In this document: positions 13,565-30,961 of the stretch, piece by piece | Layout of the letters: every line of letters begins with the position of its first letter | Position numbering within the stretch: position 1 is the stretch's first letter | Source: Bacteroidia bacterium | GTDB taxonomy: Bacteria > Bacteroidota > Bacteroidia > Cytophagales > Cyclobacteriaceae | NCBI GenBank assembly: GCA_030425425.1 | Contig: JAUIAO010000047.1 | Span: 1 to 48,711 of the forward strand | Length of the DNA: 48,711 nucleotides | Reading direction: 5' to 3' | Made by a program: the position numbers and the translations under genes | Notes under the pieces: model-generated | What the model was told of the DNA's origin: nothing | What the model saw: the letters and a program-made list of their open reading frames with translations, nothing else | Databases searched by the model: none

Positions 13565-16531
13565 TTATTGTTTGATGAAAAGTTTTTCAGTGTAATTAAA
13601 ACCATCACCATCCACCATGACGATGTAAATACCTTTCTGACTTGGGGCATTAAAGCTGAATGTTTGGTTGATTAAGTTTCCAAAATTCTCATCAAAAACT
13701 ACTTCGCCACTCAGGCTGATTACACGCACACGAACAGATTGTTTGTCCTTGAAATTGAAAGCCAGATTAAAGCTACCCGTAGCTGGATTTGGGTAGACAG
13801 TTGCAGGTTTTGGAAATTCTGGAAGTCCGGGGTTATTAGTCGTTAGCACATTGATATCATCAATGTAAATATTGTTGCCTCCACCATTGATGAGCTCAAT
13901 GGCCACCCTAATTTCAGGCCAATTAATGAATTCTGTAATATCAATGAATGCCTGCCTCCAGTCATTTGAAGATTCTGGTACCCACATCACACCAGAACTA
14001 GCCACTGACATTTGCTCGGCACTAAGACTTAATAACTCTTCACTGTATGTGCGACCGCAATCAATTGATAGCCATACTTTGAGGTTATCATTGAAATTTT
14101 GACGTTGGGCATAAGAATAGTTGAATCGGATGGCTGCCTGCTCGTATGCACCTGTTTCTAATATTGGTGAAACCAAAAAGCTGCTTCCGGTTTCAATATT
14201 GTCAAAACTTGTAGAAGATAACATACTATTTCCTTCCACCTCAACTACCTCCAGAAAGGTAAATCCATCTGGATGAGCGATTTCCCAATTGAGGTCATCA
14301 AATTTTTCCTGTACAGGGATAATGTCGGTCTCTGAAGATAACCGGGTCACATAATCAAATTCATTGTTTTCTATCTGATCATCTGTTTGTCCATTGATTG
14401 TTGTGATCTGAAAATGAAAACTATTATTTCCCTGCTGAAGATTGAAGTTGTCATTTAAGTACAAAGTCTCAGATTCACCAGACCTGAGATCAAGTTCTTC
14501 GAACAATTCAGTTGAAGTCACTCCATCATGAGTGAGTTCTAATTCTAATGATTCGATATCCTGATACCCATAATTTTTAATTTCAACTCTGGGTCTAACA
14601 GTTTCAGTACAGGTAACCACTGGCAAGTTGACTACATCTTTGATTCCAATATCCAGAGCTTGTAAGTTGGCGGAAGTGACTTCAATATTGTCCAGATAAA
14701 TATTGTTACCTGAACCATTGACACCTGCAAAGGCAACCTGAATGTTTTCCAAACCTGCAAATCTGGTGATATTCCGACTGATTCTGGTCCAATTCGAGGA
14801 TCTGGTAGGCGCAAAGGAGTCAGCGGAGTTACTGGTAGTCCTTAATGATCTTCCATACCGCTCAAATACGATGTTTTCGCGCGGGAAAGTGGCTCCACAA
14901 TCAGTGGAAACTATCACTACCAATCCATCCTGATAATATTCTCCCGAAGAGATCTCACGAGAAGCATAGGCATAGCTAAAATCCAGCTGAGCCGAGGTGA
15001 GCGAGGAAAGATCGATTGTTTGAGTCTGCACAATGTCACGATACCCAAAATTGAGCATATTGTCATAGAATGGTAGCATTAATGACTTATTGTCAACCGT
15101 GCTATCAGGAGCTGATACCAATTCCCATTGGGAAACCGTGTTATTCTCAGTACTATAGAACAGGTCGTTCTCATCTGAAAAATAGACCGAATAAGGTGGG
15201 ATTTGGGTCTTGAATGGAGCGATTAATTCTGTTTTAATGTTATTAGCGCTGTTCAAATCAAAATTGCCATTCACAGTCACTATTTCAAAACTGATTTCAT
15301 TGGTAATCTCTGGAGTAATGGTCAAAGGATCGAACGTTACTTCCATCGTTTCACCTGTCGCCAAACTGGATGTGACCGATTTGGATTGTTTCAGTTCATT
15401 ATTGATGTAAAAAACAATTTCAAAACTGGTAATTTTTTCTTCACCATAGTTTCTCACTTGTACACCCGGACTGACCGAAGAATTACATTGCGATTGTGTT
15501 GGGCTTATAATCGATCTAATGCCGAGATCATTAGTTACCAAATTTGGTTCGAGGAGTGCATGAGAGGAGAGGAGTGAATGTCTTCTGGGGCTTTCTTCAA
15601 GTATAGTCCTCATACGGGTAGTTTGACACTGGGTGAATAGATTCATACATTCATCATCAGTATAGTCCAGATAGTTTTGAACCATGTCAAGTGAACCACA
15701 GGTTTCTTTTTCCAGATCACAACCATTCGACGAGGAAGAAGCAAAGGGTGTGTCATCACAGAAATCATCCGTAGAGCAGTTGCCCCACGGGTGTTTGAGA
15801 CCCAGGAAATGACCGATTTCATGTGTGGCTGTTCTGCCGTAACTGTCAAAACCGCCAGTATTAGAATTAAACCCAAAAAATTTATAATCGATATAGGCTC
15901 CATCCATTTCTGCGTAATTACGAATTTCCGTTGCAATGCCATCAATATTCGAAAACGGGAACTGTGCATAACCAATATAATCGCCACGAAGGTCAGTTAC
16001 ATAAATATTGAAGTAATCCTGTGGAGGCCAATTGCTGTGAGAGGCGATGAGTGATAATTCGGATAGATCCACCCCAAAAGAGGGATTGGATCCCTCAACT
16101 CGGACAATCCCATCAGTTGGCATGCCTTCAGGGTCTTGCTTGGCCAATACAAACTGGATTCCTGTATTTGCAGCTACATCCTGAAATACCGTGAGTGTTT
16201 CAGTAGCATCTTCGTTAGTTCTGCTGTAGTCTTGATTGAGAATTTCTATTTGCTCTAATATCCGTCGGTCGGAGATATTACTGCCATCGCCAATTTCACT
16301 ACCATCATGAATGACATGAATTACTACAGGGATTGTATAGACTTCCTGATCTTGAACAGATGTAGTCCTTTGCTTTCTTTTTTGATGAATTTTCTGATCC
16401 AACCAGTATTCGAATTGCTCCTCAGATTCAGCACGCTCAATTGACGGCTGCAATTCATCAAAAGCACATTTTTTTTGTGCTGTTAATTGAAAAGTAACAA
16501 TGAAAGCAAAAAAAACTAAAGCTTGTTTCAT
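13565..16531 (-). CDS. Secreted M43 (pappalysin/cytophagalysin-type) zinc metalloprotease with T9SS sorting domain
   Basis: A 988-residue secreted metzincin. A signal peptide ends near TAQ; a short propeptide-like part is followed by the M43 catalytic domain with the zinc motif HEIGHFLGLKH (His237, Glu238, His241, His247), a DFCDDTP segment and the Met-turn region QNYLDYTDDECMNLF. The Met-turn methionine is replaced by leucine (Leu288, codon CTG). After this come two CARDB-like segments (about 335-435 and 635-735) alternating with jelly-roll domains, and a T9SS type A sorting domain (VYPNPATGSFNLAF ... EKLFIKQ). The start is placed at ATG 16531, which overlaps the NifU stop by one base (TGATG); a TTG three bases upstream is in frame but less likely. 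Its likely role is extracellular protein degradation. Confidence 0.9.
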   Translation of the reverse strand: MKQALVFFAFIVTFQLTAQKKCAFDELQPSIERAESEEQFEYWLDQKIHQKRKQRTTSVQDQEVYTIPVVIHVIHDGSEIGDGSNISDRRILEQIEILNQDYSRTNEDATETLTVFQDVAANTGIQFVLAKQDPEGMPTDGIVRVEGSNPSFGVDLSELSLIASHSNWPPQDYFNIYVTDLRGDYIGYAQFPFSNIDGIATEIRNYAEMDGAYIDYKFFGFNSNTGGFDSYGRTATHEIGHFLGLKHPWGNCSTDDFCDDTPFASSSSNGCDLEKETCGSLDMVQNYLDYTDDECMNLFTQCQTTRMRTILEESPRRHSLLSSHALLEPNLVTNDLGIRSIISPTQSQCNSSVSPGVQVRNYGEEKITSFEIVFYINNELKQSKSVTSSLATGETMEVTFDPLTITPEITNEISFEIVTVNGNFDLNSANNIKTELIAPFKTQIPPYSVYFSDENDLFYSTENNTVSQWELVSAPDSTVDNKSLMLPFYDNMLNFGYRDIVQTQTIDLSSLTSAQLDFSYAYASREISSGEYYQDGLVVIVSTDCGATFPRENIVFERYGRSLRTTSNSADSFAPTRSSNWTRISRNITRFAGLENIQVAFAGVNGSGNNIYLDNIEVTSANLQALDIGIKDVVNLPVVTCTETVRPRVEIKNYGYQDIESLELELTHDGVTSTELFEELDLRSGESETLYLNDNFNLQQGNNSFHFQITTINGQTDDQIENNEFDYVTRLSSETDIIPVQEKFDDLNWEIAHPDGFTFLEVVEVEGNSMLSSTSFDNIETGSSFLVSPILETGAYEQAAIRFNYSYAQRQNFNDNLKVWLSIDCGRTYSEELLSLSAEQMSVASSGVMWVPESSNDWRQAFIDITEFINWPEIRVAIELINGGGNNIYIDDINVLTTNNPGLPEFPKPATVYPNPATGSFNLAFNFKDKQSVRVRVISLSGEVVFDENFGNLINQTFSFNAPSQKGIYIVMVDGDGFNYTEKLFIKQ

Positions 16532-16818
16532 CAATTCGCAGTATGTGGAAGCCTTGCATTAGGGTCGTCAGGAGAAGTGATGTTCACCGCCTCCACTCCA
16601 GCTATCTCCGGAACAACTCTCTTAATAGCTTCCTCCACGCCGGCTTTCAAGGTCATGGTGGACATGGGACAAGAACCGCAATTACCCAACAGCTCCAGAA
16701 CGACGACTTTGGAGTCTGTAACGTTCAGGAGCTTTACATTCCCTCCGTCAGCTTCCAGATAAGGTCTGATATTATCCAGAGCATGCTCTATTTGATTTAA
16801 TAATTGTTGATCCGCCAT
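16531..16818 (-). CDS. NifU-like Fe-S scaffold domain protein
   Basis: A 95-residue stand-alone NifU C-terminal (Nfu-type) domain. The core IRPYLEADGGNVKLL is followed by the CxxC motif GNCGSCP (Cys47, Cys50), which holds a shared [4Fe-4S] cluster at the interface of a dimer. It hands clusters to target proteins in the cytoplasm. The gene lies 3 bp after the Mrp/ApbC gene, another Fe-S carrier, so the two form a functional pair, and the M43 protease gene starts within its stop codon. Confidence 0.92.
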   Translation of the reverse strand: MADQQLLNQIEHALDNIRPYLEADGGNVKLLNVTDSKVVVLELLGNCGSCPMSTMTLKAGVEEAIKRVVPEIAGVEAVNITSPDDPNARLPHTAN

Positions 16819-16821
16819 TAC

Positions 16822-17916
16822 TTAAACGGTTATTTCTACTTTTTTAGTCTTATCCAATGTAGCATTTCTGATTGCTACTTGCTGAGCCACAGATTGAGCC
16901 AGGTCTTCGAAAGCCCTGGCCGTGATGTCATCTTTCAGCACAGCAGGGTACCCATTATCTCCGCTCTCGCGAATACTTTCGACAATTGGAATCTGTCCAA
17001 GCAGACTCACGTCGTGTTTCTTAGCAAGTTCTTCTCCGCCGCCTTGACCGAAAATATAATATTTGTTTTCTGGGAGTTCCTCAGGTGTGAAATAGGCCAT
17101 GTTTTCCACTACGCCCAGAACCGGTACATTTACTTGCTGTTGTCTGAACATCGCAATTCCTTTCTGCGCGTCAGCAATTGCAACTTTTTGTGGAGTAGTA
17201 ACTACTATTGCTCCTGTGACTGGCACGCTTTGAACCAATGTAAGATGAATGTCACTTGTGCCGGGAGGCAGATCAATCAGCAGGTAATCAAGATCTCCCC
17301 ATAAGGTATCCGAAAGAAATTGTTTTAAGGCAGAGCTTGCCATAGGTCCTCTCCAAACTACGGCTCCATCCGCAGGAGCGAGAAATCCGATTGACATTAG
17401 TTTTACTCCATATTGTTCTATCGGCAATATTTTACTTTGTCCGTTTTCCTGACTCACAGTTGGTTGCTCATGTTCACAGTTAAACATGGTTGGAACAGAA
17501 GGTCCGAAAATATCGGCATCTATCAATCCAACTTTTGCACCGGATTTTGAAAGTGCCACAGCTAGATTTGCTGCCACGGTAGATTTGCCTACACCTCCTT
17601 TTCCTGATGATACTGCAATGATATTTTTTACACCTGGCAGCATTGGTCCCAATTCTTTTGCTGCAGTCACAGCACTTGACATCTCAATATCTAAATTCGC
17701 ATCAGTACCAAAATGCTTGAAAATGGCTTTTTCACAATCCTTACGAATCATTTCCTTGAGCGGGCAGGCAGGTGTGGTGAGCATTACTGTGAATTTGATC
17801 ACATCATCTTTGGTCTGCACATTATGAATCATGTTTAGTGAAACCAAATCTTGTTTCAGGTCAGGGTCTATTACCTCACTTAATGCTTTGAGGATGTTGT
17901 CTCTGTTTATTTCCAT
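16822..17916 (-). CDS. apbC: Mrp/NBP35 family Fe-S carrier ATPase (ApbC)
   Basis: A P-loop ATPase that assembles or carries Fe-S clusters. An N-terminal MIP18/DUF59 domain (about residues 4-80, with the reactive TTPACPLKEM cysteine) precedes the deviant Walker A motif SSGKGGVGKST, DADIFGPSVP (Walker A-prime region), and LLIDLPPGTSD. The usual C-terminal CxxC cluster ligands are missing: the site reads AYFTPEELPENKYYIFGQGG, a variant I recall from other Bacteroidota. The ATG at 17916 (MEINRDNIL) is chosen because the family starts here; the frame is open to 18003, adding 29 unrelated residues. It is first in an operon with the NifU-like gene. Confidence 0.93.
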   Translation of the reverse strand: MEINRDNILKALSEVIDPDLKQDLVSLNMIHNVQTKDDVIKFTVMLTTPACPLKEMIRKDCEKAIFKHFGTDANLDIEMSSAVTAAKELGPMLPGVKNIIAVSSGKGGVGKSTVAANLAVALSKSGAKVGLIDADIFGPSVPTMFNCEHEQPTVSQENGQSKILPIEQYGVKLMSIGFLAPADGAVVWRGPMASSALKQFLSDTLWGDLDYLLIDLPPGTSDIHLTLVQSVPVTGAIVVTTPQKVAIADAQKGIAMFRQQQVNVPVLGVVENMAYFTPEELPENKYYIFGQGGGEELAKKHDVSLLGQIPIVESIRESGDNGYPAVLKDDITARAFEDLAQSVAQQVAIRNATLDKTKKVEITV

Positions 17917-18230
17917 TTTCTTGTGTCTATAAAAGTATGCAATGTTAATCAAGCTAACTCTGTCCTCAAACAAATACAAGTGATGAATAGTTTGACCTGA
18001 CATTTAATCATCACCTTCGGTAACCTGGTTAACCTACATTATCCATCAGAAATGTAGATTTTTTGCTTCAAGTGATTGATTTTCAGTGATGAATGAGAAG
18101 ATATTACAAAAATTGATAGCTCAAATTTGGGTTATTCTATTTTTGGAATTTCGAATCAATCACTCTGTAAATCAAGGTGTTACCGTATTTTAATAACTTA
18201 GTCCCGAATTTTTAGGGTTAACTTTAATGA

Positions 18231-20030
18231 ATGATGATAAATTTCCTATTCATTCTATTCTTACAAACTACACCAATTATTATTTCTCCTGGCACTCAAG
18301 AGGTGCAGCTAAATTTGCAAGAATTAGAATACTATGAAGATTCAAGAGGAAAATTGACTTTTCAGGATATTTCTTCAGAGGGTTTCCAATCTCAATTCCG
18401 GCGCAATCAAAATTATACTCCACAGGATTACAATACTTCTTCGGTTTATTGGGTCAGATTGAGGTTGGTCATTCCTCGTGAAGACAATAACTATTTGGTT
18501 GAGTTTTTTGATCAGACGATTGATTCTCTGACAGTTTATATCCAACCTCCGGGAACGGATCGCTTCAATGTTTACGAAATGGGGGATATGCATCCTTTCC
18601 AAAGTAAACCAATTGCTCACAAAAATTTTGAAATTCAATTACCAGAAGCTGGTACTTACAAAATTTACTTTCGTGTGATTAGTCATGAGTATGCAGATGT
18701 GAGAGTAGGGATTCGTAGTTACAATCATTTTGTCAAGTACGCTCTGGCTGAATATGCACTCTATGGAATCTTTTATGGAATGATTCTTATTATTTCTTTA
18801 TACAATATTTTGATATACACGGCAATCAGGGAGGTGAAGTACCTTTATTATACCTTTTATATAATAAGTGTAGGATTGTTTGCTATGAGCGTAGATGGTG
18901 TCGCGTATCAATACTTATGGAGAAACAGTCCTGTATGGAATCAGATTGCTCATGGAGTATCACTTTTCTTAATTATTTTCTGGGCGATTCTTTTCTCTAA
19001 AAAATTCCTCAGCCTAAAAACACGGGCACCAAAGCTCAACCAGTATTTGAATGTGGTATTTGCACTTAGAATTGGTTTTTTTGTTTACTCACTCCTGTTC
19101 GATCATTCGCTGTTTCAGTTTAGAAATATTGAATTAATACCACTTACTATCATTTTTGTAGGGAGTATTCAGGTGTATCAAAAAGGATATAAACCTGCCA
19201 GGTTTTTCATTGTTGCATTTGGGTTTTTATATCTCGGCTTTGTACTGAAAGCATTTCTAATGTTATCAATCATTCCATTTTCTACTGTTTCCTATTACAG
19301 TTTGCACATTAGTTTTGTTTTTGAAATGCTGTTTCTATCCTTTGCTCTTAGTGATCGGGTAAGAATTCTCAAAGAAAACCGTGATAGAGCGCTGAAAAGA
19401 ATTATCAATCAGCATGAGGAAAATGCAAAACTTAAAGATGATCTCAATGCAAGGTTAGAACATCTTGTGGGGCAGCGAACGAAGGAAATACAAGAGAAAA
19501 ACGATCAGCTTTTTATTCAGAAACAGGAGATTTCAGAGATCAATAGTTTGCTTGACCTGGATAATTGGCGACTTAGAAATAATATCAAATCGATTCAGAG
19601 AGAAAGACTTCAAGATAAAGAACTTACCTATGATGAGTTCGTGGAGGTTTTTCCTGACAGACTTGCCTGTCTTCAGATTTTGGCAAAACAAAAGTGGACA
19701 CGCGATTATGAGTGTTTAAAATGCGAAAATCATTCTTACAGTGAAGGGAATATTCCTTTGAGCAGGAGATGTAGTAAATGTGGATATCAGGAATCACCAA
19801 CGACAAATACTATTTTTCACGGAATCAAAATACCGTTGGAAAAAGCCTTCTATATTCTGTATGAAACATTGAATCAAGATCAATATTCTTTATCCGAATT
19901 TTCAGAAATACTCCAAATCAGAAAAAATACTATAGCGGATTTCAAGAAACGTATCAAGTCAAAAACCGATGAAGAAAGGCGCTCGCTTATGAAAATCTTC
20001 AGAAACCTGGAGGATATTACTGTTTCCTGA
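18231..20030 (+). CDS. 7TM-DISM membrane sensor fused to an IS1595-transposase-like zinc-ribbon domain
   Basis: The 599-residue protein has a signal-like N-terminus, a periplasmic 7TMR-DISM-extracellular type 2 domain (about 20-160, with SSVYWVRLRL and GTYKIYFRVIS), seven membrane helices (about 172-383), and a coiled coil (about 384-465). The cytoplasmic end (about 467-580) resembles the N-terminal domain of IS1595 transposases: YDEFVEVFPDRLACLQILAK, then a zinc ribbon with Cys495-x2-Cys498 and Cys514-x2-Cys517, then SPTTNTIFHGIKIPLEKAF and a helix-turn-helix-like segment. No DDE catalytic domain follows, so it is not a transposase. DISM proteins normally carry kinase, cyclase or HTH outputs. 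It sits 268 bp upstream of, and co-directional with, susC; no HTCS, SusR or ECF-sigma gene is present. I infer a membrane-bound DNA-binding regulator of the PUL. Confidence 0.85.
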   Translation: MMINFLFILFLQTTPIIISPGTQEVQLNLQELEYYEDSRGKLTFQDISSEGFQSQFRRNQNYTPQDYNTSSVYWVRLRLVIPREDNNYLVEFFDQTIDSLTVYIQPPGTDRFNVYEMGDMHPFQSKPIAHKNFEIQLPEAGTYKIYFRVISHEYADVRVGIRSYNHFVKYALAEYALYGIFYGMILIISLYNILIYTAIREVKYLYYTFYIISVGLFAMSVDGVAYQYLWRNSPVWNQIAHGVSLFLIIFWAILFSKKFLSLKTRAPKLNQYLNVVFALRIGFFVYSLLFDHSLFQFRNIELIPLTIIFVGSIQVYQKGYKPARFFIVAFGFLYLGFVLKAFLMLSIIPFSTVSYYSLHISFVFEMLFLSFALSDRVRILKENRDRALKRIINQHEENAKLKDDLNARLEHLVGQRTKEIQEKNDQLFIQKQEISEINSLLDLDNWRLRNNIKSIQRERLQDKELTYDEFVEVFPDRLACLQILAKQKWTRDYECLKCENHSYSEGNIPLSRRCSKCGYQESPTTNTIFHGIKIPLEKAFYILYETLNQDQYSLSEFSEILQIRKNTIADFKKRIKSKTDEERRSLMKIFRNLEDITVS

Positions 20031-20080
20031 GAAAAAATAATTGTATTATTTGAATATTTTTTTTTGAACTTGATTGTGTG

Positions 20081-20157
20081 ATTAAATCGTTATATCAATT
20101 TTCAATATTTGGATGGTATTTAATATTGAATAAAAAATATTGATATTAAATCGTTAT
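20081..20157. promoter_or_regulatory. Candidate operator pair: 13-bp direct repeat spaced by 64 bp upstream of susC
   Basis: The 13-mer ATTAAATCGTTAT occurs at 20081-20093 and exactly again at 20145-20157. The 64-bp offset is close to six turns of B-DNA, so proteins bound at both copies would face the same side. Both lie upstream of the candidate susC promoter and next to the gene for the membrane sensor fusion. The region is very AT-rich, which makes chance matches more likely than usual. Confidence 0.45.
20101..20130. repeat. AT-rich inverted repeat between the two direct repeats
   Basis: TTCAATATT (20101-20109) and AATATTGAA (20122-20130) form a perfect 9-bp inverted repeat with a 12-base spacer, centred between the two copies of the 13-bp repeat. 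It could be a dimer-binding site. Confidence 0.4.
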
Positions 20158-20229
20158 GATGTGATAATCAAACTAATTTATAGGATTGTCATTTATTGTA
20201 TTTTACCAATATTTTTAATTTGCTAAAAA

Positions 20230-20260
20230 TTTGTTTTGTGGTTGATTTGCTCTAAAGTTG
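20230..20260 (+). promoter_or_regulatory. Candidate Bacteroidota-type promoter of the PUL operon
   Basis: A TTTG at 20230-20233 (-33 element) is followed after 19 bp by TAAAGTTG (20253-20260), one mismatch from the Bacteroidota -7 consensus TAnnTTTG. This places a transcription start about 30 bases upstream of the susC ATG. Confidence 0.45.
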
Positions 20261-20298
20261 TGGTAGTGAAAACGATTTCAAATTGACCTAATAACAAT

Positions 20299-23200
20299 AT
20301 GAAGCAAGTTTATCGGTTGAATTTTACCATTCTAGCAATGGTTTTTTTTGTTGTTTCTGCTTTCGGACAGAAACATACAATTACTGGGACACTGACGGAT
20401 AGTGAGACAGGGGAAGCGCTGATAGGTGCCACTATTTTGGAGAAAGGCACATCCAATGGAACGATTACTGACATTGATGGGAATTATGATCTTACTGTGT
20501 CCAGTGCAGAAGCGCTTCTGGTTTTTTCTTATGTAGGATATGCCAATCAGGAATTATCCGTAAACGGTAGAACCAGAATAGACGTAGCACTTGGTCTGGA
20601 TTTAATGGGGTTAGAAGAAGTGGTGGTAGTAGGGTACGGTACCCAGCAGAAAAAGGATTTGACTTCATCTATCGCGACTATTAAAAGTGAGGAAATCACT
20701 AAAACACCTACCAACTCGGCCATGCAAAGTTTGCAAGGAAAAGTAGCAGGTGTGCAGATAGTGAGCTCTGGAGAGCCGGGTGCAGGACCTACTGTCAGAG
20801 TAAGAGGGGTTGGTACATTGCAAGGTGATTCCAGGCCTCTATATGTTGTAGACGGGATGTTTTTCGATGACATCAATTTCCTTAATCCTGCAGATATAGA
20901 ATCCATTTCCGTTTTGAAAGATGCATCTGCTGCTGCTATTTACGGAGTTAGAGCTGCAAATGGTGTTGTATTAGTACAAACTAAAGGAGGAGCTTACGGA
21001 AAAGAAACCACTATCACCTACGATGGCTATTGGGGAGTGCAGCGAGCTCAAAACGTATTGGAAATGGCTGGCACAGAATTGTTTACTCAATATGCATTGT
21101 CTACGGGTGCAGATGCAGACGCTTCATTTATCAACAATGCTTTTCAACGATACGGGCGAAGCAGAACCAACACCACGCTACCTGCGGTTGATACAGATTG
21201 GTATGATGAGGTTTTGCAAAACACTTCACCTATTCAAAATCATACACTAACTGCCAGCGGTGGATCTGAATCAGCAAAGTACTCTCTGAGTGTGGGCTAC
21301 TTGAATCAGGAAGGTCTGGTAAAAGTGAGAAAAAACTCCTACGAGCGATTTAATTTCAGAACAAAAGTAGATGTCAACTTAAGAGATTGGATAGATGTAG
21401 GTGGTAATATTAATGTAACTCGATCTGAACAGCACGTAGCACCAAATTCAGTATGGTTCAATACATACTTTGCTGTTCCAATTTTCCCAGCTTATGACGA
21501 AACCAACGTAAATGCTTATCCATTGAAGCTTGGAAATGCCAGAAACCTTGGGTACAGAGGAAGGCAGAACCCTTTCTTTGAAATGTATAATGGTGATGAC
21601 CAAAATTTAGTGACAAAGCTTGTTGGTAACATGTTTGCCGATATTGAAATCATACCTAACAAGCTTCATTTCAAGTATTCCTACAACTACGACTACAATT
21701 CTTTGAATGTGAGAAATGTAAATTTCGAATACAATGATGGTACGGCTTTTAATCGTTCTAGTATTTACAAACGAAGTGCTTCTTCATTTCATCAGATTGT
21801 CAACAACTTATTGACATACAATGAAAATATTGGAAAACACAGCTTCACTGCTATGGCAGGATATGCATGGGATGTAACGCGTACTTCATCTATAAATATT
21901 CGAGTGGATAGTGCTTTAGTCAATCCGAGTTTTGATAATGAAGAGTTGTGGTATTCACAAGCATCGACTCAATTAGATCTCGCAGGTATCGGCGATGGAG
22001 GTAGTAGTTTAAATATCACATCGTATATCGGTCGACTTTCATATAACTATGATAACAGATACCTGGTATATGGTACACTGAGACGAGATGGTACTAACAA
22101 ATTTCAGAAGAAATGGGGCCTTTTTCCTACCATAGGTCTGGGATGGGTGATTTCAGAAGAGAGTTTCCTCAATGTAAATTATCTGGACTTTTTGAAGCTT
22201 AGAGGAAGTTGGGGTAAGCTCGGTAATGCGAATGTTCCTGCAGCTGATGGTGAGCCATCATATGATGTTCAGGATTTGGCGATAGATGATCAGTTGGAAA
22301 CAGGAATAGTGGCTGTAAAGCAATTTGATTATCTGGGAGAGTGGGAAACTACAGTGGAAACAAATATTGGAATAACCGCAAATGCATTTAATAGTAGACT
22401 ATCTGTAGACGCAGACTATTATGTGAGAGAAACCGAAAATGCCGCTGTAACCATCATCCTCCCGCTCGTACGCGCTAATGTGAGGAGAAACCTGGGAAGT
22501 ATCAAAAACCAGGGAGTAGAAATGAATATCAACTGGGCGGATAATTTAGCGAATGGGATAAAATATAATTTAGGACTCAACTTTGCTACACTCAAAAACG
22601 AAGTTACCGATTTGGGAGGTCAGCAATATCTAAATGCCGGTTCTGCGGAATTCAGACAAAGATCGATATTAGGTCAGCCAATTGAAGCATTCTATGGGTA
22701 CGAAGTAGAGGGGATATTCCAAAACGCTCAAGAAATTACCAATAGTGGGCTTATTGAAGACTTTATTGCCGACAATAGTATTGAACCAAGTGATTTCAAA
22801 TACAAAGACCAGAATGATGACGGTGTGATTGATGATTTGGATCGTGTGGTACTCGGGTCTAATCTCCCGTCCCTGACGTATGGATTTAATCTTGGAGCAG
22901 GTTACAAGCAATTTGAACTATCAGCAAACTTCCAGGGTCAGAGAGGATTTAGTATTCTCAACCGAAAAAGAGGAGAAGTCATTTTTACAACTGATGCCAA
23001 TCTGGACGCTGAGCTCCTTGATAATTTGTGGACTGGTGAGGGTACTTCAAACAAATACCCATCTGCTGCCGGTTTGAGAAAAGGATATAACCAATCGATG
23101 AGTGACTATTTCGTAGAAGATGGATCATATTTCAGAATTCAGAATGTCCGATTGAGTTATAATCTCCCTCAAGGACAATTATTTGGGAAAGACATACCAG

Positions 23201-23343
23201 AGACAAGGATCTCTCTTACTGCGGAAAAGCCATTGACTGTTTTCGATTACAATGGTTTCAACCCTGAAGTGGCCAGTGGAATAGACAGACAAACGTATCC
23301 GATTCCGGCTGTTTATACCATAGGAGTAAACTTAAAACTGTAA
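20299..23343 (+). CDS. SusC/RagA-type TonB-linked outer-membrane transporter
   Basis: A 1014-residue outer-membrane barrel that, with SusD as its lid, imports oligosaccharides using TonB energy. Signal peptide to about residue 24 (SAFGQ), a carboxypeptidase-regulatory-like domain (about 27-105, ITGTLTDSETGEALIGATI), the TonB box EEVVVVGYG, a plug with the SusC signature region (RVRGVGTLQGDSRPLYVVDG, DIESISVLKDASAAAIYGVRAANGV), then the barrel. It is the first gene of the PUL, 9 bp ahead of susD, behind a Bacteroidota-type promoter. The substrate is inferred from the enzymes downstream as a beta-1,2-glucan. Confidence 0.95.
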   Translation: MKQVYRLNFTILAMVFFVVSAFGQKHTITGTLTDSETGEALIGATILEKGTSNGTITDIDGNYDLTVSSAEALLVFSYVGYANQELSVNGRTRIDVALGLDLMGLEEVVVVGYGTQQKKDLTSSIATIKSEEITKTPTNSAMQSLQGKVAGVQIVSSGEPGAGPTVRVRGVGTLQGDSRPLYVVDGMFFDDINFLNPADIESISVLKDASAAAIYGVRAANGVVLVQTKGGAYGKETTITYDGYWGVQRAQNVLEMAGTELFTQYALSTGADADASFINNAFQRYGRSRTNTTLPAVDTDWYDEVLQNTSPIQNHTLTASGGSESAKYSLSVGYLNQEGLVKVRKNSYERFNFRTKVDVNLRDWIDVGGNINVTRSEQHVAPNSVWFNTYFAVPIFPAYDETNVNAYPLKLGNARNLGYRGRQNPFFEMYNGDDQNLVTKLVGNMFADIEIIPNKLHFKYSYNYDYNSLNVRNVNFEYNDGTAFNRSSIYKRSASSFHQIVNNLLTYNENIGKHSFTAMAGYAWDVTRTSSINIRVDSALVNPSFDNEELWYSQASTQLDLAGIGDGGSSLNITSYIGRLSYNYDNRYLVYGTLRRDGTNKFQKKWGLFPTIGLGWVISEESFLNVNYLDFLKLRGSWGKLGNANVPAADGEPSYDVQDLAIDDQLETGIVAVKQFDYLGEWETTVETNIGITANAFNSRLSVDADYYVRETENAAVTIILPLVRANVRRNLGSIKNQGVEMNINWADNLANGIKYNLGLNFATLKNEVTDLGGQQYLNAGSAEFRQRSILGQPIEAFYGYEVEGIFQNAQEITNSGLIEDFIADNSIEPSDFKYKDQNDDGVIDDLDRVVLGSNLPSLTYGFNLGAGYKQFELSANFQGQRGFSILNRKRGEVIFTTDANLDAELLDNLWTGEGTSNKYPSAAGLRKGYNQSMSDYFVEDGSYFRIQNVRLSYNLPQGQLFGKDIPETRISLTAEKPLTVFDYNGFNPEVASGIDRQTYPIPAVYTIGVNLKL

Positions 23344-23352
23344 AAACTGAAA

Positions 23353-24891
23353 ATGACTCTTAATATGAAATCTATGAAATTCAATATGATTAAAGCATTG
23401 ATGGCAGTGGTCATTTTCTTAGCTGCATCATGTGATTCTGTTCTGGACGATCCAAGAGAAACGCTGATAGTGGAGTCAGGAATTGATTATAGTAATCAGA
23501 ACCTGATGCACGAATTGTATAGAGGAGCATACTATACTTTATATAATATCCAGTGGGAATCATTTCCGTTGGTCTCAGTAAGAGGCGATGATGTGAGTGC
23601 AGAAGGGGACCAGGAACCTTTGTTGGAAACACAAGCATTCAGATATGATCGGTCATTCTGGATTTACAATTCTGTCTGGCTCAATTATTACTCTGATATT
23701 ATTAATTGGTATGCGGCCATTGAAGAGATTAAAAAATTCCAAACCAATTCCGCCACACCCGAGGTTGCAGATCGCTACATAGCGGAAATCAAAGTAATGA
23801 TTGGTTATGAATTACTACAGGTTTCCAGAATATGGGGAGATATTCTGATCCCAGAGACCTCACAAACCAATGAACTGTATGACGCGGAGGTGGTGCCGCA
23901 TGAGGATGTGCTGCAATACATCTCTGATAAAATGGATGAAGCCATGCCTCACCTTCTTACGGTGGCACCGAATGATCGATCCAATATACCTGGTGGTATT
24001 ACAGTTTACACAGCTTTGGCCGTTAAAGCCATGGCTAATCTGGAATTGAAAAACTGGCAGGAAGTTGTAGACGCTACTGGTGAGATCATAGGCTCTGGTG
24101 AGTTTTCATTGTTCTCAGATTACTATCATCTGTTCAAAACAGCCGGGAAATTAGCCGACGAAAACATTCTTGAGTTACAATATTCTGATTTTGGTGAAGG
24201 ATCTGGTATTGGAGTAAGATATCTGCATGCATTTTTTGGTCCCAATAATTGGACACCAGCCCAGGAGGGAATCAGTCCGGGATGGGGGTTTTGGGAGCCA
24301 ACCATGAAATACATCAAATTTATGCTGGACAGGGGTGAGACAGTTCGTCTTGAAACCAGCGTATTGTTTACCAATGAAGGTATAGACAGTTTGAAAGCTC
24401 AGCCTGGATATGAGACACTACCAGGATTTATCAGCAATACTACCAGAGAAGGCGACGTGTGGGGAACTACAGATGGGAGTGCCAACCCACGATCAATATT
24501 TTCAAGTGGTAAGCATTACCTACCATCAACAGAAATTATATCAGGAAGAACTGATTATGGATCCAACAAAAACTTCATTTGTATCAGATACTCTGAAATT
24601 TTATTGATGCATGCAGAGGCATTAGTCAGTGGAGCTTCCAGCAGTGTGATGTCAGCGGATGAGGCAGTCAATGAAGTGAGAACCAGAGCAGGTCTATCCA
24701 CTTTGGCTGGAGTAACAATTGATGATGTTCTGGATGAAAAATTTGCCGAATTTGGAATGGAATGGGGTATCAGATTCTATGATTTGGTACGTCACGGAAA
24801 AACCAGTGAGCTTGATGGATACAGCGAGCAAGATCAGTTTATTCCTTATCCATTGGATCAGATAGACTTATTACCACAGTTGAATCAATAA
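23353..24891 (+). CDS. SusD/RagB-type surface glycan-binding lipoprotein
   Basis: A 512-residue lipoprotein partner of the SusC transporter. The lipobox LAASC marks lipidation. The N-terminal part (DSVLDDPRETL) and the helical TPR-like scaffold with RGAYYTLYNI, the MIGYELLQVSRIWGDILIP segment, YSEILLMHAEAL and EFGMEWGIRFYDLVRHG near the C-terminus are standard SusD features. It forms the hinged lid over SusC that captures the glycan. Alternative ATGs at codons 5 and 8, and at the MIKALM position, also precede the hydrophobic stretch, so the exact start is uncertain by a few residues. Confidence 0.94.
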   Translation: MTLNMKSMKFNMIKALMAVVIFLAASCDSVLDDPRETLIVESGIDYSNQNLMHELYRGAYYTLYNIQWESFPLVSVRGDDVSAEGDQEPLLETQAFRYDRSFWIYNSVWLNYYSDIINWYAAIEEIKKFQTNSATPEVADRYIAEIKVMIGYELLQVSRIWGDILIPETSQTNELYDAEVVPHEDVLQYISDKMDEAMPHLLTVAPNDRSNIPGGITVYTALAVKAMANLELKNWQEVVDATGEIIGSGEFSLFSDYYHLFKTAGKLADENILELQYSDFGEGSGIGVRYLHAFFGPNNWTPAQEGISPGWGFWEPTMKYIKFMLDRGETVRLETSVLFTNEGIDSLKAQPGYETLPGFISNTTREGDVWGTTDGSANPRSIFSSGKHYLPSTEIISGRTDYGSNKNFICIRYSEILLMHAEALVSGASSSVMSADEAVNEVRTRAGLSTLAGVTIDDVLDEKFAEFGMEWGIRFYDLVRHGKTSELDGYSEQDQFIPYPLDQIDLLPQLNQ

Positions 24892-24930: not shown

Positions 24931-26739
24931 ATGAAAATTCTAAGAGGATTATCAATTATTGCATTGCTTGCATTTTTGATTACCGCAGTTTCATGCGGCG
25001 AGGATGAAGAACCACAGCAGACAGTAGAGGATACTGAAGATCCTGTTGTGACGATTACTGCACCAGCTGATGGGTCTACTATCAGCGTATTAGATGCTAC
25101 CACATCTGTGACGATCACTTATTCGGTGACTGATGATGTAGAGATTGGCTCTGTAGTGGTGAATTTTGACGGAACACAATTAGAAGAGGTCACCTCTTTT
25201 GTTGATTTTCTGAATTATTCCGGACAAGTAGTAAAAGATGACGTGAGCGATGGTGAGTATACCATTACTGTGATCGCTACCGATCTTGCTGGTAATTCTA
25301 CTACCGCTTCTTCCACTTTCACAAAGGTGACAGCTAATCCTTATACTCCTTTGGCCAATGAGGTGTTTTACATGTCATTCGAAGGAAACTACACAGAGTT
25401 AGTAACAGAAGAAGATGCTACTCAGGAAGGTACGCCAGGATTTGCAGGTGAGGGTAAAGAAGGAGATAATGCATATGCTGGAGCAGCAGATTCATATATC
25501 ACTTTCCCTACTACTGATTTGCAAAATACAGAAATGACGGCATCCTTCTTCATGAAGTTGGATGTGACAGCAGATAGAGCTGGTATTTTGGCCATGAGCC
25601 CTGAAGATGCGGAAAACCCTGATGCTCAGAATGTAAGAACAAGTGGATTTAGATTCTTCCGTGAAGCGAGTGGAGATCTTCAGATCTTCAAATTGAATTT
25701 TGGAACAGGTGATGCAGAAGTATGGCTAGATGGAGGAGATGCTGCTAAGCTGGATCCAACTGATGACGTTTGGCATCACTTCGCATTCGTAATCGAAGCT
25801 ACAATGGCCAGAGTGTATATTGACGGTATCTTGGTAGCGCAGAATGAAGAGCATATTGGCATGGACTTAACCGGTTGCGATCTTTTATCAATTGGTTCTG
25901 GAGCGCCACGATTTACAGGATGGGGTCACATGTCTGACAATAGCTACATCGATGAGTTGAGAATCTTCAACAAAGCACTTACCGACGCAGAGCTGGAGGC
26001 GGCTTCAGGTGTTGAAATTTTGGGAGAACAAGAATTTGATCCGAATCCACAATTGACACCAGTAGATGGTGCTGATGCTACCGAATTGATGAGAATGACA
26101 TTTGATACTGATTTCACTACTTCAGGAACGGTAACACCTACTGTGACCACTGTTGGTTCTCCGACTGTCTCTGGTGCAGCATATGTAGGAGCTGCAGATT
26201 CTTACATTACTATGCCAGCAACAGACCTGATGAAAACAAATATTTCTGTTTCTTTCTGGGTAAATGTGAATAACACACCAGACAGAGCTGGAATCATCGT
26301 GATAGGGCCTGAAGATACTGGAAATGCTGACTACCCGGATGTTCAGAATAATAGAACAAGTGGATTCCGTTTCTTCCGTGAAGCTGGAACAAGAGGTCAG
26401 AGATACAAACTCAATGTTGGTAATGGAACAGCTGACTCATGGGCTGATGGCGGTGAATATGCTGAAATTCCAGATGATGTAAATGAAATGAGACACATTG
26501 CATTTACTATTTCAGATACCTTGGCGCAAGTTTACATGAATGGAATACTGGTTACACAGTCTTCTATTGGCGGACTGGACTGGACAGGATGTGATATCAT
26601 GTCATTCGGATCTGGAGCTCCAAGATTTACAGAATGGGGTCACCTGGCTGATGAAAGTACATTTGATGACTTGAGGGTTTATGAAGGAGTATTGACTTCT
26701 ACTCAAGTGGCAGGCTTGAAATCTGATGGACCACAATAA
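24931..26739 (+). CDS. Surface lipoprotein with Ig-like domain and two LamG-like domains (SusE/F position)
   Basis: A 602-residue lipoprotein (lipobox TAVSC) in the position of a SusE/SusF-type surface glycan-binding protein. After an acidic linker it has a bacterial Ig-like domain (about 37-135, VTITAPADGSTI ... TVIATDLAGN) and two concanavalin-A/LamG-like jelly rolls (about 143-355 and 385-597). The two jelly rolls are internal duplicates: RTSGFRFFREA begins at residue 236 and again at 475, and FGSGAPRFTEWGH mirrors IGSGAPRFTGWGH. Such domains bind glycans; ligand specificity cannot be read from sequence. It follows susD by 39 bp and is followed by a strong hairpin that may reduce transcription into the enzyme genes. 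Confidence 0.88.
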   Translation: MKILRGLSIIALLAFLITAVSCGEDEEPQQTVEDTEDPVVTITAPADGSTISVLDATTSVTITYSVTDDVEIGSVVVNFDGTQLEEVTSFVDFLNYSGQVVKDDVSDGEYTITVIATDLAGNSTTASSTFTKVTANPYTPLANEVFYMSFEGNYTELVTEEDATQEGTPGFAGEGKEGDNAYAGAADSYITFPTTDLQNTEMTASFFMKLDVTADRAGILAMSPEDAENPDAQNVRTSGFRFFREASGDLQIFKLNFGTGDAEVWLDGGDAAKLDPTDDVWHHFAFVIEATMARVYIDGILVAQNEEHIGMDLTGCDLLSIGSGAPRFTGWGHMSDNSYIDELRIFNKALTDAELEAASGVEILGEQEFDPNPQLTPVDGADATELMRMTFDTDFTTSGTVTPTVTTVGSPTVSGAAYVGAADSYITMPATDLMKTNISVSFWVNVNNTPDRAGIIVIGPEDTGNADYPDVQNNRTSGFRFFREAGTRGQRYKLNVGNGTADSWADGGEYAEIPDDVNEMRHIAFTISDTLAQVYMNGILVTQSSIGGLDWTGCDIMSFGSGAPRFTEWGHLADESTFDDLRVYEGVLTSTQVAGLKSDGPQ

Positions 26740-26828: not shown

Positions 26829-28835
26829 ATGCGAGACTTTATCGATTCTAATATGAATCTGCAATTGCTGCGATTATCCTTTTTTGTTTTACTCATTGGA
26901 ATGATCGTGGTTACAGGTTGTAATGAAGAAGAACAACCATCCCAAAGTCTTGAAATAAATTCAATACAAGTTCAAAACCAGGACTTACTTGACGGACTTG
27001 CGACAGGAGTTGAATTAAATGCTCCAATAATCATTTCATTCAATTTACCAATATCATCTACGGATCTTAGTTCATCTATTACTATCAAGGATCAGGACGG
27101 TCAAAATATTGGTATTGAAATCAATACCTTCAATCAAAACAAAAATATCAGCATATACCCCTCTGAAAACTATCAGCATTATTCCACCTACACCTTGACT
27201 TTTACGAACCTTCCAAGTGAGGATGGAAGTGTTGAATTCTCAGCTACAGACTTCTCATTTCAGACCATTGCGGGATCATTAGTGATGGAATCAATTATAT
27301 CTGATGGTAATGATTTGACAAAGTCAGGTACTCAAAAAGACATTTCTCTCAACCTGGATATTCAGGTTAGATTTTCCGCAGGTCTGGACGAACAAACGAT
27401 TAACTCTGATAATGTTTTCCTGAAGTGGAAAGGAATAAAGATTCCCATAAACACTGCTATCCGAGAAAACCTGCTAACAATTACAGCAAAAGAACCCCTC
27501 AAATACTGGAATGAATACGAGCTGGTATTAGACTCAGCAATAAAAGGAATAGGAGCTTATGCTTTCGGAGGGTTTCAAAAAGCATTCATTACCGAGCTGG
27601 ATTCCTCTTACAAGTTTGAGGAAATATCCGATGATGCATTATTGACAAAAATTCAGGAACAGACATTTAAATACTTCTGGGATTATGGCCATCCAACCAG
27701 CGGACTGTCTCGTGAACGGTTGAATTCTGGTGAGACAGTAACAATAGGAGGATCTGGATTCGGAGTGATGTCCATAATAGTCGGTATAGAACGAGGATTT
27801 ATTTCCCGCGAAGAAGGAGTGAATAGATGGTTGAAAATCGTCAATTTTTTACAAACAAAAGCGGATCGTTTTCATGGAGTTTGGCCCCATTGGCTGAACG
27901 GTGAGACAGGGGCTACCAGACCATTTAGCACCTATGATGACGGGGGTGATTTGGTAGAATCGGCATTTATGCTGCAAGGTTTACTTACTGTGAGACAATA
28001 TCTGGACGATCAGAATACAAAAGAAGCAGAAATCATCTCTAAAATAAATGAACTGTGGAACGAAGTAGAATGGGATTGGTATCAGCAAAATGGGCAAAAT
28101 GTTTTGTATTGGCACTGGTCGGCCAATCATGATTGGCAAATGAATATGCGTGTGACAGGGTGGAATGAGTCACTGATCGTTTACCTATTGGCTGCATCCT
28201 CTACTACACACACCATAGACAAAGCTGTCTACACAAATGGCTGGGCAAGAAATGGAGGTATGGCCAATGGAAATTCTTATTATGATATTGAATTACCTCT
28301 TGGGTATAGTTATGGAGGACCATTGTTTTTTACGCATTATTCGTTTTTAGGACTGGACCCTCGAAACTTATCAGATCAGTACGCGAATTATTGGACTCAG
28401 AATGTAAACCATAGTAAGATTAATTACAGTTACTGTGTTGATAATCCTAAAAACTATCTGGGATATAGCAGCGCCTGCTGGGGACTAACAGCCAGCGATA
28501 ATTATCAAGGATACTCTGCTCACAGTCCTACAAACGACCTGGGTGTGATAACACCAACAGCGGCTATTTCTTCGATTCCTTATACTCCTGAAGAATCGAT
28601 GAAAGCTATACGGTTTTTCTATTATCTGATGGGAGATCGGATTTTTGGAGATTATGGCTTCAAAGATGCCTTTGCTCCGAAAGAGGGATGGTATGCCTCA
28701 TCTTATCTGGCAATTGATCAGGGACCGATCATTCTAATGATTGAAAATTACAGGACAGGGTTACTTTGGGACTTGTTCATGTTAGCTCCAGAAGTTCAAA
28801 ATGGTTTAGACAAACTCGGATTTACTTATGAATAA
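26829..28835 (+). CDS. GH144 endo-beta-1,2-glucanase lipoprotein with N-terminal Ig-like domains
   Basis: A 668-residue lipoprotein (lipobox VVTGC). Residues about 40-260 form two SbsA/Ig-like domains (PIISFNLPISSTDL, ISLNLDIQVRFSAGL). The C-terminal part (about 268-668) is a glycoamylase-like (alpha/alpha)6 barrel, Pfam Glycoamylase, which is CAZy family GH144. Typical segments are FKYFWDYGHPTSGLSRER, GGSGFGVMSI, DRFHGVWPHW, DDGGDLVESAF, NVLYWHWS and AIDQGPIILMIENYRTGLL. The founding member from Chitinophaga pinensis cleaves linear beta-1,2-glucan into sophorooligosaccharides. An ATG at 26853 is a possible alternative start. The 3' end overlaps the next GH144 gene by 8 bp. Confidence 0.92.
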   Translation: MRDFIDSNMNLQLLRLSFFVLLIGMIVVTGCNEEEQPSQSLEINSIQVQNQDLLDGLATGVELNAPIIISFNLPISSTDLSSSITIKDQDGQNIGIEINTFNQNKNISIYPSENYQHYSTYTLTFTNLPSEDGSVEFSATDFSFQTIAGSLVMESIISDGNDLTKSGTQKDISLNLDIQVRFSAGLDEQTINSDNVFLKWKGIKIPINTAIRENLLTITAKEPLKYWNEYELVLDSAIKGIGAYAFGGFQKAFITELDSSYKFEEISDDALLTKIQEQTFKYFWDYGHPTSGLSRERLNSGETVTIGGSGFGVMSIIVGIERGFISREEGVNRWLKIVNFLQTKADRFHGVWPHWLNGETGATRPFSTYDDGGDLVESAFMLQGLLTVRQYLDDQNTKEAEIISKINELWNEVEWDWYQQNGQNVLYWHWSANHDWQMNMRVTGWNESLIVYLLAASSTTHTIDKAVYTNGWARNGGMANGNSYYDIELPLGYSYGGPLFFTHYSFLGLDPRNLSDQYANYWTQNVNHSKINYSYCVDNPKNYLGYSSACWGLTASDNYQGYSAHSPTNDLGVITPTAAISSIPYTPEESMKAIRFFYYLMGDRIFGDYGFKDAFAPKEGWYASSYLAIDQGPIILMIENYRTGLLWDLFMLAPEVQNGLDKLGFTYE

Positions 28836-30183
28836 ATATTTTACTTCCTTTTTCTTTTTAGTCATCCTACTAGCTACGTCTTGTGCCAACAAGCAAAAGC
28901 CAACTGGTGACTCTGAAAGTCATGTTACTGGGTTAGATCAGGATTCGTTATTGAATTTATTGCAATACCAGACATTCCAATATTTCTGGGATGGGGCAGA
29001 ACCGAACTCAGGCCTTGCCAGAGAAAGGGTGCATATGGATAATATTTATCCAAGTAATGACCGCAATGTTGTGACCTCAGGTGGGTCAGGGTTTGGAATT
29101 ATGGCAATTTTGGTAGGAGTGGAGCGTGGATTTATCACACGTCAGGAATCTGTCAATCGATTCGAGACCATTCTGGATTTCCTGGAAACGGCGGATCGTT
29201 TTCATGGGGTTTATCCGCATTGGTGGTACGGTGATACTGGCAAAGTAAAACCATTCAGTAAAAAAGATGATGGGGGTGATTTGGTTGAGACTGCTTTTCT
29301 GATGCAGGGACTGCTAGCTGCTCGACAGTATTTTCAAAATGGAACGGATCGGGAAAAGGCCATTGCTGACCGCATTGACAAAATCTGGAAGGGAGTAGAA
29401 TGGAACTGGCACACCAAAGGAGGCGAAAATGTACTTTACTGGCACTGGTCTCCAAATTTTGGATGGGATATGAACTTTCCGGTGGGTGGGTATAATGAAT
29501 GCCTGATCATGTATGTTTTGGCTGCTTCTTCACCGACTTATGGAATTGAACCAGAAGTATATCATGAAGGCTGGTCCAGATCTGGTGAAATCGAAACAAA
29601 GAGAAAGTATTACGGTCATGATTTAGTGCTCGATCATTATGAACACAATGATGATCCGGTAGGTCCTTTGTTTTGGGCTCATTATTCATATCTAGGGTTA
29701 GATCCCCGAGGATTAAAAGATCAGTACGGGGAGTATTGGAATTTGAACGAAAGTCATGCACTTTCTCACTATGACTATAGTCTAGAAAACCCTGAGGGGT
29801 TTGCGGGCTACGGTAAAAACTGCTGGGGTATGACATCCAGCTACTCAATGAGAGGTTATGCAGGTCACAGACCGGGTCAGGATTTAGGCGTTATTTCACC
29901 TACAGCAGCATTGTCTTCATTTCCTTATACTCCGGATGAGAGCATGCAAATGCTCAATTTTCTATATGAACCGTCAAGAGACTCACTGATTGGAAAATAT
30001 GGCCCATATGATGCTTTTAGCTTCGAAAGTAACTGGTATTTACCAAGATATCTGGCAATTGATCAAGGCCCTATTCCTGTGATGGTAGAAAACTATAGAA
30101 GTGGTTTGTTGTGGGATTTGTTTATGTCTGCTCCAGAAATCAAATTGGGACTCAAAAAATTAGGATTCGAATATGAAAAGTAA
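28828..30183 (+). CDS. Second GH144 endo-beta-1,2-glucanase lipoprotein
   Basis: A 451-residue lipoprotein (lipobox LATSC) made almost entirely of a GH144 barrel (about 42-451) with no Ig domains. It shares the segments of its neighbour (TFQYFWDGAEPNSGLARER, GGSGFGIMAI, DRFHGVYPHW, DDGGDLVETAF, NVLYWHWS, AIDQGPIPVMVENYRSGLL), so the pair looks like a diverged tandem duplication. Differences in the inserts (for example GETGATRPFSTY against GDTGKVKPFSKK, and a YYGHDLVLDHYEHNDDP insert here) may change chain-length preference or tolerance of substituents. The gene overlaps the previous one by 8 bp and the next by 11 bp, pointing to coupled translation. Confidence 0.92.
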   Translation: MNKYFTSFFFLVILLATSCANKQKPTGDSESHVTGLDQDSLLNLLQYQTFQYFWDGAEPNSGLARERVHMDNIYPSNDRNVVTSGGSGFGIMAILVGVERGFITRQESVNRFETILDFLETADRFHGVYPHWWYGDTGKVKPFSKKDDGGDLVETAFLMQGLLAARQYFQNGTDREKAIADRIDKIWKGVEWNWHTKGGENVLYWHWSPNFGWDMNFPVGGYNECLIMYVLAASSPTYGIEPEVYHEGWSRSGEIETKRKYYGHDLVLDHYEHNDDPVGPLFWAHYSYLGLDPRGLKDQYGEYWNLNESHALSHYDYSLENPEGFAGYGKNCWGMTSSYSMRGYAGHRPGQDLGVISPTAALSSFPYTPDESMQMLNFLYEPSRDSLIGKYGPYDAFSFESNWYLPRYLAIDQGPIPVMVENYRSGLLWDLFMSAPEIKLGLKKLGFEYEK

Positions 30184-30961
30184 TTTCATACTACTTACGC
30201 TCATTTTTCAGACTTTTCTGGCTTGGGGGCAAGATCACCTTGGCCTTTACGAGTCTGCGACTTTTAAAAATGAAACTGGTGAATTGAATTACCGGATCAT
30301 GTACCCTGAAAATTTTGATGCTAACATGGAGTATCCAGTAGTATTGTTTCTTCACGGTTCTGGAGAGCGCGGATCAGATAATCAAAAGCAGCTTGTGCAC
30401 GGTAGCAAACTTTTTGCTCACGAAAATACACGATCTGATTATCCAGCTGTGGTAATATTTCCGCAGTGTCCAAGGGAGGACTATTGGGTAAATGCCGATG
30501 TGGATAGAAGTAGTCTTCCATTTGGGATTTTATTTAAGAAAGAAAATCAACCCACCAAATCCATGCAATTGGTTATTGACCTCATGGATTCTATTCAGTC
30601 ACTGAACTACTCCAAAGATGATCAAATATATGTCGGAGGACTTTCTATGGGTGGAATGGGTACTTTTGATATACTTCGTTTCAGACCAGAGATGTTTGCT
30701 GCGTCATTCCCCATATGCGGCGGGGCAGACCCTGATATTACCAGTCAGTACAATTCCAATTTGAACATTTGGGTATTCCACGGAGCACGTGATAATGTAG
30801 TCCTGCCGGGTTATTCTACGGATATGGTGATTGCAATGCGCAAAGCTGGTATTGATACAAAATACACTTTGTACAAAAATGCCAATCATAACAGCTGGGA
30901 CAGCACATTCGCCGAACCGGGCCTTTTGCCATGGTTGTTTTCTAAAACTCTCAAACCTTGA
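30173..30961 (+). CDS. Secreted alpha/beta-hydrolase esterase (PHB-depolymerase/CE1-like)
   Basis: A 262-residue serine hydrolase with a signal peptide (ILLTLIFQTFLAWGQ). The oxyanion region is LFLHGSGERG, the nucleophile Ser158 lies in GGLSMGGMG, and the likely acid and base are Asp207 (HGARDNVV) and His239 (NANHNSWD). The fold resembles PHB depolymerase or CE1-type carbohydrate esterases, often labelled prolyl oligopeptidase family. It starts inside the preceding GH144 gene (11-bp overlap) and its stop overlaps the GH43 start, so it belongs to the operon. I infer removal of acyl groups (acetyl, succinyl or similar) from the glycan; it could instead be a peptidase-like hydrolase. Confidence 0.85.
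   Translation: MKSNFILLTLIFQTFLAWGQDHLGLYESATFKNETGELNYRIMYPENFDANMEYPVVLFLHGSGERGSDNQKQLVHGSKLFAHENTRSDYPAVVIFPQCPREDYWVNADVDRSSLPFGILFKKENQPTKSMQLVIDLMDSIQSLNYSKDDQIYVGGLSMGGMGTFDILRFRPEMFAASFPICGGADPDITSQYNSNLNIWVFHGARDNVVLPGYSTDMVIAMRKAGIDTKYTLYKNANHNSWDSTFAEPGLLPWLFSKTLKP

Follow-up and report, generated by a model that had tools for sequence, protein, structure and literature searches.

We found that a membrane receptor of the 7TMR-DISM type carries, as its cytoplasmic end, a module homologous to the DNA-recognition N-terminus of IS1595-family transposases, and that a conserved pair of short DNA sites in front of the glycan-uptake genes it most likely controls resembles the ends of IS1595 elements. 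The receptor gene (18231-20030, plus strand, 599 residues) lies in a 48,711-nucleotide stretch of DNA from a Bacteroidia bacterium of the family Cyclobacteriaceae (GCA_030425425.1, JAUIAO010000047.1), referred to here as the window. Our best interpretation, held with good confidence, is that the protein is a membrane-bound one-component regulator, probably an activator, of an adjacent SusC/SusD locus for beta-1,2-glucan, although DNA binding, zinc binding, ligand and sign are inferred from sequence and structure prediction. The original prediction, that a transposase DNA-binding domain had been domesticated as the output of a membrane receptor that acts from the membrane, is supported by the evidence presented below.

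Architecture of the receptor and origin of its tail

Following a hydrophobic N-terminus, the protein contains a periplasmic 7TMR-DISMED2 domain (PF07696; residues 30-159, 18318-18707; E 1.3e-24) and a 7TMR-DISM_7TM domain (PF07695; residues 174-376, 18750-19358; E 2.2e-43). In an AlphaFold model of the full-length protein (mean pLDDT 81.1), a single helix spanning residues 357-460 (19299-19610) runs from the seventh membrane helix into a cytoplasmic coiled coil with a conserved linker, although pLDDT fell below 50 at residues 441-462. The compact module that follows (residues 465-576, 19623-19958) was modelled with a mean pLDDT of 94.4 as short strands around four cysteines and then three helices arranged as in an HTH. 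The protein ends 23 residues later, and no DDE domain follows the tail. PF12762, the IS1595 DDE domain, had no match in the home genome.

The relationship of the tail to IS1595 transposases is supported most directly by BLASTP, in which residues 465-576 aligned with residues 19-131 of the transposase of one IS1595 element (locus L223) at 42% identity over 113 positions (E 4e-29). A profile built from the tails also matched the N-termini of IS1595-type ORFs of roughly 300 residues, over nearly the whole length of the profile, at E 1e-17 to 1e-38, and the four of these ORFs that were scanned with Pfam all carried PF12762. The cysteines (C495, C498, C514 and C517; codons at 19713, 19722, 19770 and 19779) were invariant in 42 of 42 distinct homologues, and 29 alignment columns of the tail were at least 90% identical. 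By contrast, the test suggested in the original prediction, a PF12760 match in this single protein, did not reach the curated cut-off of 25.4 bits (13.6 bits for the tail alone, 10.5 for the whole protein), and NCBIfam scans of the tail likewise gave only sub-threshold hits. Of four other fusions scanned, two passed this cut-off (26.6 and 32.3 bits) and two did not (24.5 and 15.4 bits). Searches of PDB sequences with the whole protein and with the tail profile revealed no significant relative of the tail, and the best Foldseek match had an E of 0.58, with most matches covering about 39 residues of HTHs or ribosomal zinc ribbons.

Distribution of the fusion

The fusion is widespread in the order of the window, with paralogues. 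In the same family, 110 of 196 genomes had a tail match at E 1e-3. In the order, 105 of 291 genomes had a match at E 1e-15, several with many paralogues, when 16 candidates were scored per genome. In a sample of the phylum, 18 of 395 genomes had a match, which is a lower bound because 11 candidates were scored per genome; 11 genomes had frames of 599-718 residues, two of which are outside the order. A scan of close relatives identified three Marinoscillum records and a MAG labelled Rickettsiales (67-69% identity), then Fulvivirga, Echinicola, Algoriphagus, Litoribacter and others.

The same tail was found on other sensors. Two HTCS-type proteins with Reg_prop repeats and Y_Y_Y domains (loci L171, 2891-5890, and L172, 3006-6206) end in the IS1595 zinc ribbon/HTH instead of a kinase, both pass the PF12760 cut-off (32.1 and 26.6 bits, respectively), and the L172 gene sits directly before susCD. 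The tail also occurs on 238-residue proteins in two genomes (one on the minus strand) that have, by eye, one membrane helix and a coiled coil, although Pfam showed no PF12760 in the minus-strand protein; on a 307-residue protein; and alone, without a DDE domain, in a 137-residue minus-strand ORF (locus L181, 1194-1607) of a genome outside the class of the window. In another genome, about 20 frames of 154-190 residues had nearly the same score for the IS1595 N-terminus and appear to be short or broken copies of one element. In a tree of 76 rows, receptor-type tails and transposases fell on two sides of one branch in 90% of 200 bootstrap trees but with weak branch support (85/32). This tree omitted three long-branch fusions and three transposase rows, counted one row (L081) as transposase, and placed another (L079) in no group. 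An earlier tree of 81 rows, with 49 fusions taken from 99, gave support of 74/0. These results fit one capture followed by sensor swaps without proving it.

Linkage to a glycan-utilization locus

In the window, the receptor gene is followed on the plus strand by genes for SusC (20299-23343; TIGR04056, 826 bits; TonB-dependent receptor plug), with 268 bp between the receptor stop codon and the susC start, and SusD (23353-24891; PF07980, E 1.8e-19). Next are genes for a protein with two concanavalin A-like (Laminin_G_3) stretches and an Ig domain (24931-26739), a PF10091 glycoside hydrolase, probably GH144-type, with Big_5 (26829-28835), a second PF10091 protein (28828-30183), an alpha/beta-hydrolase-type protein (30173-30961; PF00326, PF01738), GH43 with F5/8 type C and fn3 domains (30958-32733), GH3 (32754-35066), a sulfatase (35225-36715), and an esterase-type protein (36715-37614; PF20434) that may or may not belong to the locus. 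The second PF10091 protein is a close relative of the solved endo-beta-1,2-glucanase 5gzh (E 1.5e-186), and PDB relatives of the GH3 protein include 3u48 (best) and 5xxl, the latter apparently a beta-1,2-specific enzyme. Beta-1,2-glucan is therefore the likely substrate. On the other side of the receptor gene, the minus strand carries genes for NifU-like and iron-transfer P-loop NTPase (NUBPL/Mrp type) proteins (16531-18003), with genes of similar length upstream in three of the other loci, and for an M43-type peptidase with a Por secretion tail (13565-16534).

Linkage to susCD recurred in other genomes. Of 78 distinct receptor genes, 42 had SusC as the next gene on the same strand, 41 of these then had SusD, 11 more had SusC or SusD nearby, and 25 had neither nearby. 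For comparison, the home genome shows 80 first-look SusC candidates in 5.8 Mb, of which only 32 were scored. Loci were chosen by hand from hits of the family, order and phylum scans (60 regions), plus 19 from the scan of close relatives and the window, and SusC and SusD were called with profiles built from the window's own genes and their relatives in these loci. Two of 80 sources gave no receptor ORF over 500 residues, and removal of duplicates by the last 150 residues reduced 79 rows to 78, which include the two HTCS-type genes and one locus in which our DISM profiles found no match. The fetched paralogues of two genomes (G634 and G685) sit beside other genes, and G685 also has two receptor genes of this class in tandem. 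PF10091 genes number 0-3 per genome and lay within 15 kb of a receptor gene in 26 of 33 genomes, which we picked from those with receptor loci that we had looked at. This link was absent in seven genomes, including the two outside the order. In three genomes, PF10091 matches fell inside frames of about 2,900 residues, as may be the case in cyclic beta-1,2-glucan synthases.

A paired site between the receptor and susC genes

The choice of the DNA at 20031-20298 for a binding test in the original prediction is backed by a conserved paired site in this region. Expectation maximization on 42 receptor-susC intergenic regions (43 before removal of one duplicate) identified the motif TTGTTATTNAAGCGNNA, shifted by one base between starts, without information about spacing. 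In the window, box 1 is TGTGTGATTAAATCGTTA (20075-20092, plus strand) and box 2 is ATTGATATTAAATCGTTA (20139-20156, plus strand), which begins 64 bp after the start of box 1 and ends 142 bp before the susC ATG. Hits with scores of 9 or more formed 37 same-strand pairs 20-150 bp apart, of which 28 were spaced by 64 (16), 65 (9) or 66 (3) bp. In this set, on which the model was trained, 31 of 42 regions exceeded the 99.9% level of Markov-resampled sequences, whereas 11, including L172, did not reach the 99% level. When regions were aligned on box 2, most columns with high information lay inside the two boxes, making shared ancestry of the whole region an unlikely cause. No Bacteroidota promoter consensus was found at a fixed place after box 2.

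Multiple tests support the association of the paired site with the receptor. First, a scan of 79 whole receptor loci and the window listed 33 pairs (32 distinct), of which 30 were before SusC, two were after the receptor gene but before another gene, and one was before the gene divergent from a receptor; the last three loci were not used in training. Second, pairs were absent from 16 of 16 other susC upstream regions of the window's genus, in which the best score was 5.1 compared to the threshold of 19 used in the scan of whole loci. Third, models trained without the genus or without the Fulvivirga group, with one additional locus left out of training in both runs, ranked both boxes first and second in 8 of 8 left-out loci. 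Fourth, in 15 loci not used in training, 13 exceeded the 95%, 12 the 99% and 10 the 99.9% level of the null when spacing was held to 63-67 bp, but with spacing left free the two best hits were 64-67 bp apart in only 8 of 15. These 15 remained from 20 fetched regions after 5 that shared sequence with training loci were set aside, and two of them come from the same records as loci already included in the scan of whole loci. The window site was the best match in the home genome to a pair model built in part from it (E 9.9e-5), and the next best was 0.28, so a single target is likely. The next hits of this model in other genomes (E 0.0015, 0.0028 and 0.012) showed no receptor ORF among the largest frames nearby and look like chance.

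Resemblance of the boxes to IS1595 ends

Read outward, the ends of the L223 element are TTTGTTAGTTAAACGGTAATACCTA and TATGTTCCCTAAACGGTAATACCTA, in register with the box TTGTTATTNAAGCGNNA. Across 16 lineages (32 ends), the box model scored best in the outward orientation, 6 bp from the tip, and 7 of 2000 column-shuffled models did as well; in the inward orientation it was no better than the shuffles. The corresponding values were 10 of 1000 without L223 and 2 of 1000 for L223 alone. A subset of four lineages gave 0 of 1000 but was picked after looking, and we rely on the figures for all 16 or without L223. Mean scores on the ends were low (-4.85 for all, 8.35 for L223), indicating that these sites are similar, not equal, to the boxes. 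This test was designed after the L223 ends had been seen, and an earlier free scan of IS1595 loci for operator-like sites was negative or unremarkable for most. Moreover, the 16 lineages were chosen by eye from 33 rows for a plausible inverted repeat, one per lineage, with tips set by eye; the 17 others were left out as copies of a lineage or for lack of a credible repeat, among them one with a strong inverted repeat but an odd element length. We regard the result as good but not final evidence that the domesticated domain kept its old specificity.

Discussion

In the most likely mechanism, sugar binding by the DISMED2 domain, most likely of a beta-1,2-gluco-oligosaccharide, changes the seven-helix bundle and a long, presumably dimeric, coiled coil. 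The DISMED2 domain of NicD is reported to bind carbohydrates (PMC8544897). Two tails of a dimer, or two dimers on the same face of DNA about six turns apart, would then hold the boxes, and RNA polymerase would be recruited at susC while the protein is still anchored in the membrane. The geometry, the absence of kinase or receiver domains, and the position of the boxes suit an activator that works from the membrane, but sign and mechanism are inferred.

Alternative models appear less likely. Nothing in the sequence fixes the sign of regulation and no promoter was located, and thus the protein could repress susCD or be cut from the membrane to reach DNA. We consider this possibility doubtful, as box 2 ends 116-178 bp before the susC ATG in the 31 high-scoring pairs, a distance that would generally suit an activator upstream of a promoter, and the modelled helix reaches from the membrane to the tail without a break, albeit with low confidence over residues 441-462. 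It is also possible, but improbable, that the boxes are the operator of another regulator encoded elsewhere and that the tail has a different role, such as protein contact. The lack of binding data and the 11 of 42 intergenic regions without a pair above the 99% level leave room for this model. However, pairs occur after receptor genes and not before the 16 other susC genes, the motif resembles the ends of elements whose transposases share the tail, and zinc-ribbon and HTH residues are strongly conserved.

The reverse direction of transfer, in which IS1595 transposases acquired a host zinc-ribbon/HTH domain, seems similarly unlikely, although the receptor/transposase split is weakly supported, the root is a midpoint, and receptors were sought mainly inside the phylum of the window. 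Among 14 distant control genomes, PF12760 gave matches in 6, over its cut-off in 2, and PF12762 in 1. Two remote IS1595 elements fell outside both groups in the 81-row tree but on the transposase side in the 76-row tree. The similar site at IS1595 ends also argues against this model.

The receptor shares DISMED2, DISM_7TM, a coiled coil and a cytoplasmic output with 7TMR-DISM receptors, but an IS1595 zinc ribbon/HTH replaces outputs such as kinase, GGDEF, phosphatase or HTH domains. A ChiS-family DNA-binding domain occurs in proteins with 7TMR-DISM (PMC8092284) but is a different domain. Compared to IS1595 transposases, the protein has the N-terminal zinc ribbon and HTH but no DDE domain, and its tail is strongly conserved as part of a receptor. 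HTCS regulators of polysaccharide utilization loci also appear to combine a periplasmic glycan sensor and DNA recognition in a single protein next to susCD, but the window protein has no histidine kinase, receiver or AraC domain, and thus no phosphotransfer is expected. CadC and ToxR probably also have a DNA-binding domain tethered to the membrane, apparently by one helix, but the window protein has seven helices, a C-terminal DNA-binding part, and a different DNA-binding domain. In agreement with the original prediction, which knew of no description of this combination, searches of open-licence literature by title and the start of the abstract found no paper that joins 7TMR-DISM with a transposase or IS1595 domain, and the word transposase does not occur in two 7TMR-DISM papers (PMC1592074; PMC8092284), although a description elsewhere cannot be excluded.

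Somewhat more likely than not, both halves of this regulatory circuit come from a transposon, with the DNA-binding domain derived from an IS1595 transposase and the operator boxes derived from, or modelled on, the terminal inverted repeats of that element. After one capture, the module would have spread and moved among several kinds of membrane sensors, giving a whole class of glycan-locus regulators in Cytophagales and their relatives. If our interpretation is correct, it would add a new class of sensors that switch on glycan uptake in Bacteroidota and what we believe is a rare bacterial case of a transposase DNA-binding domain turned into a signal-controlled transcription factor, with its likely target site identified.
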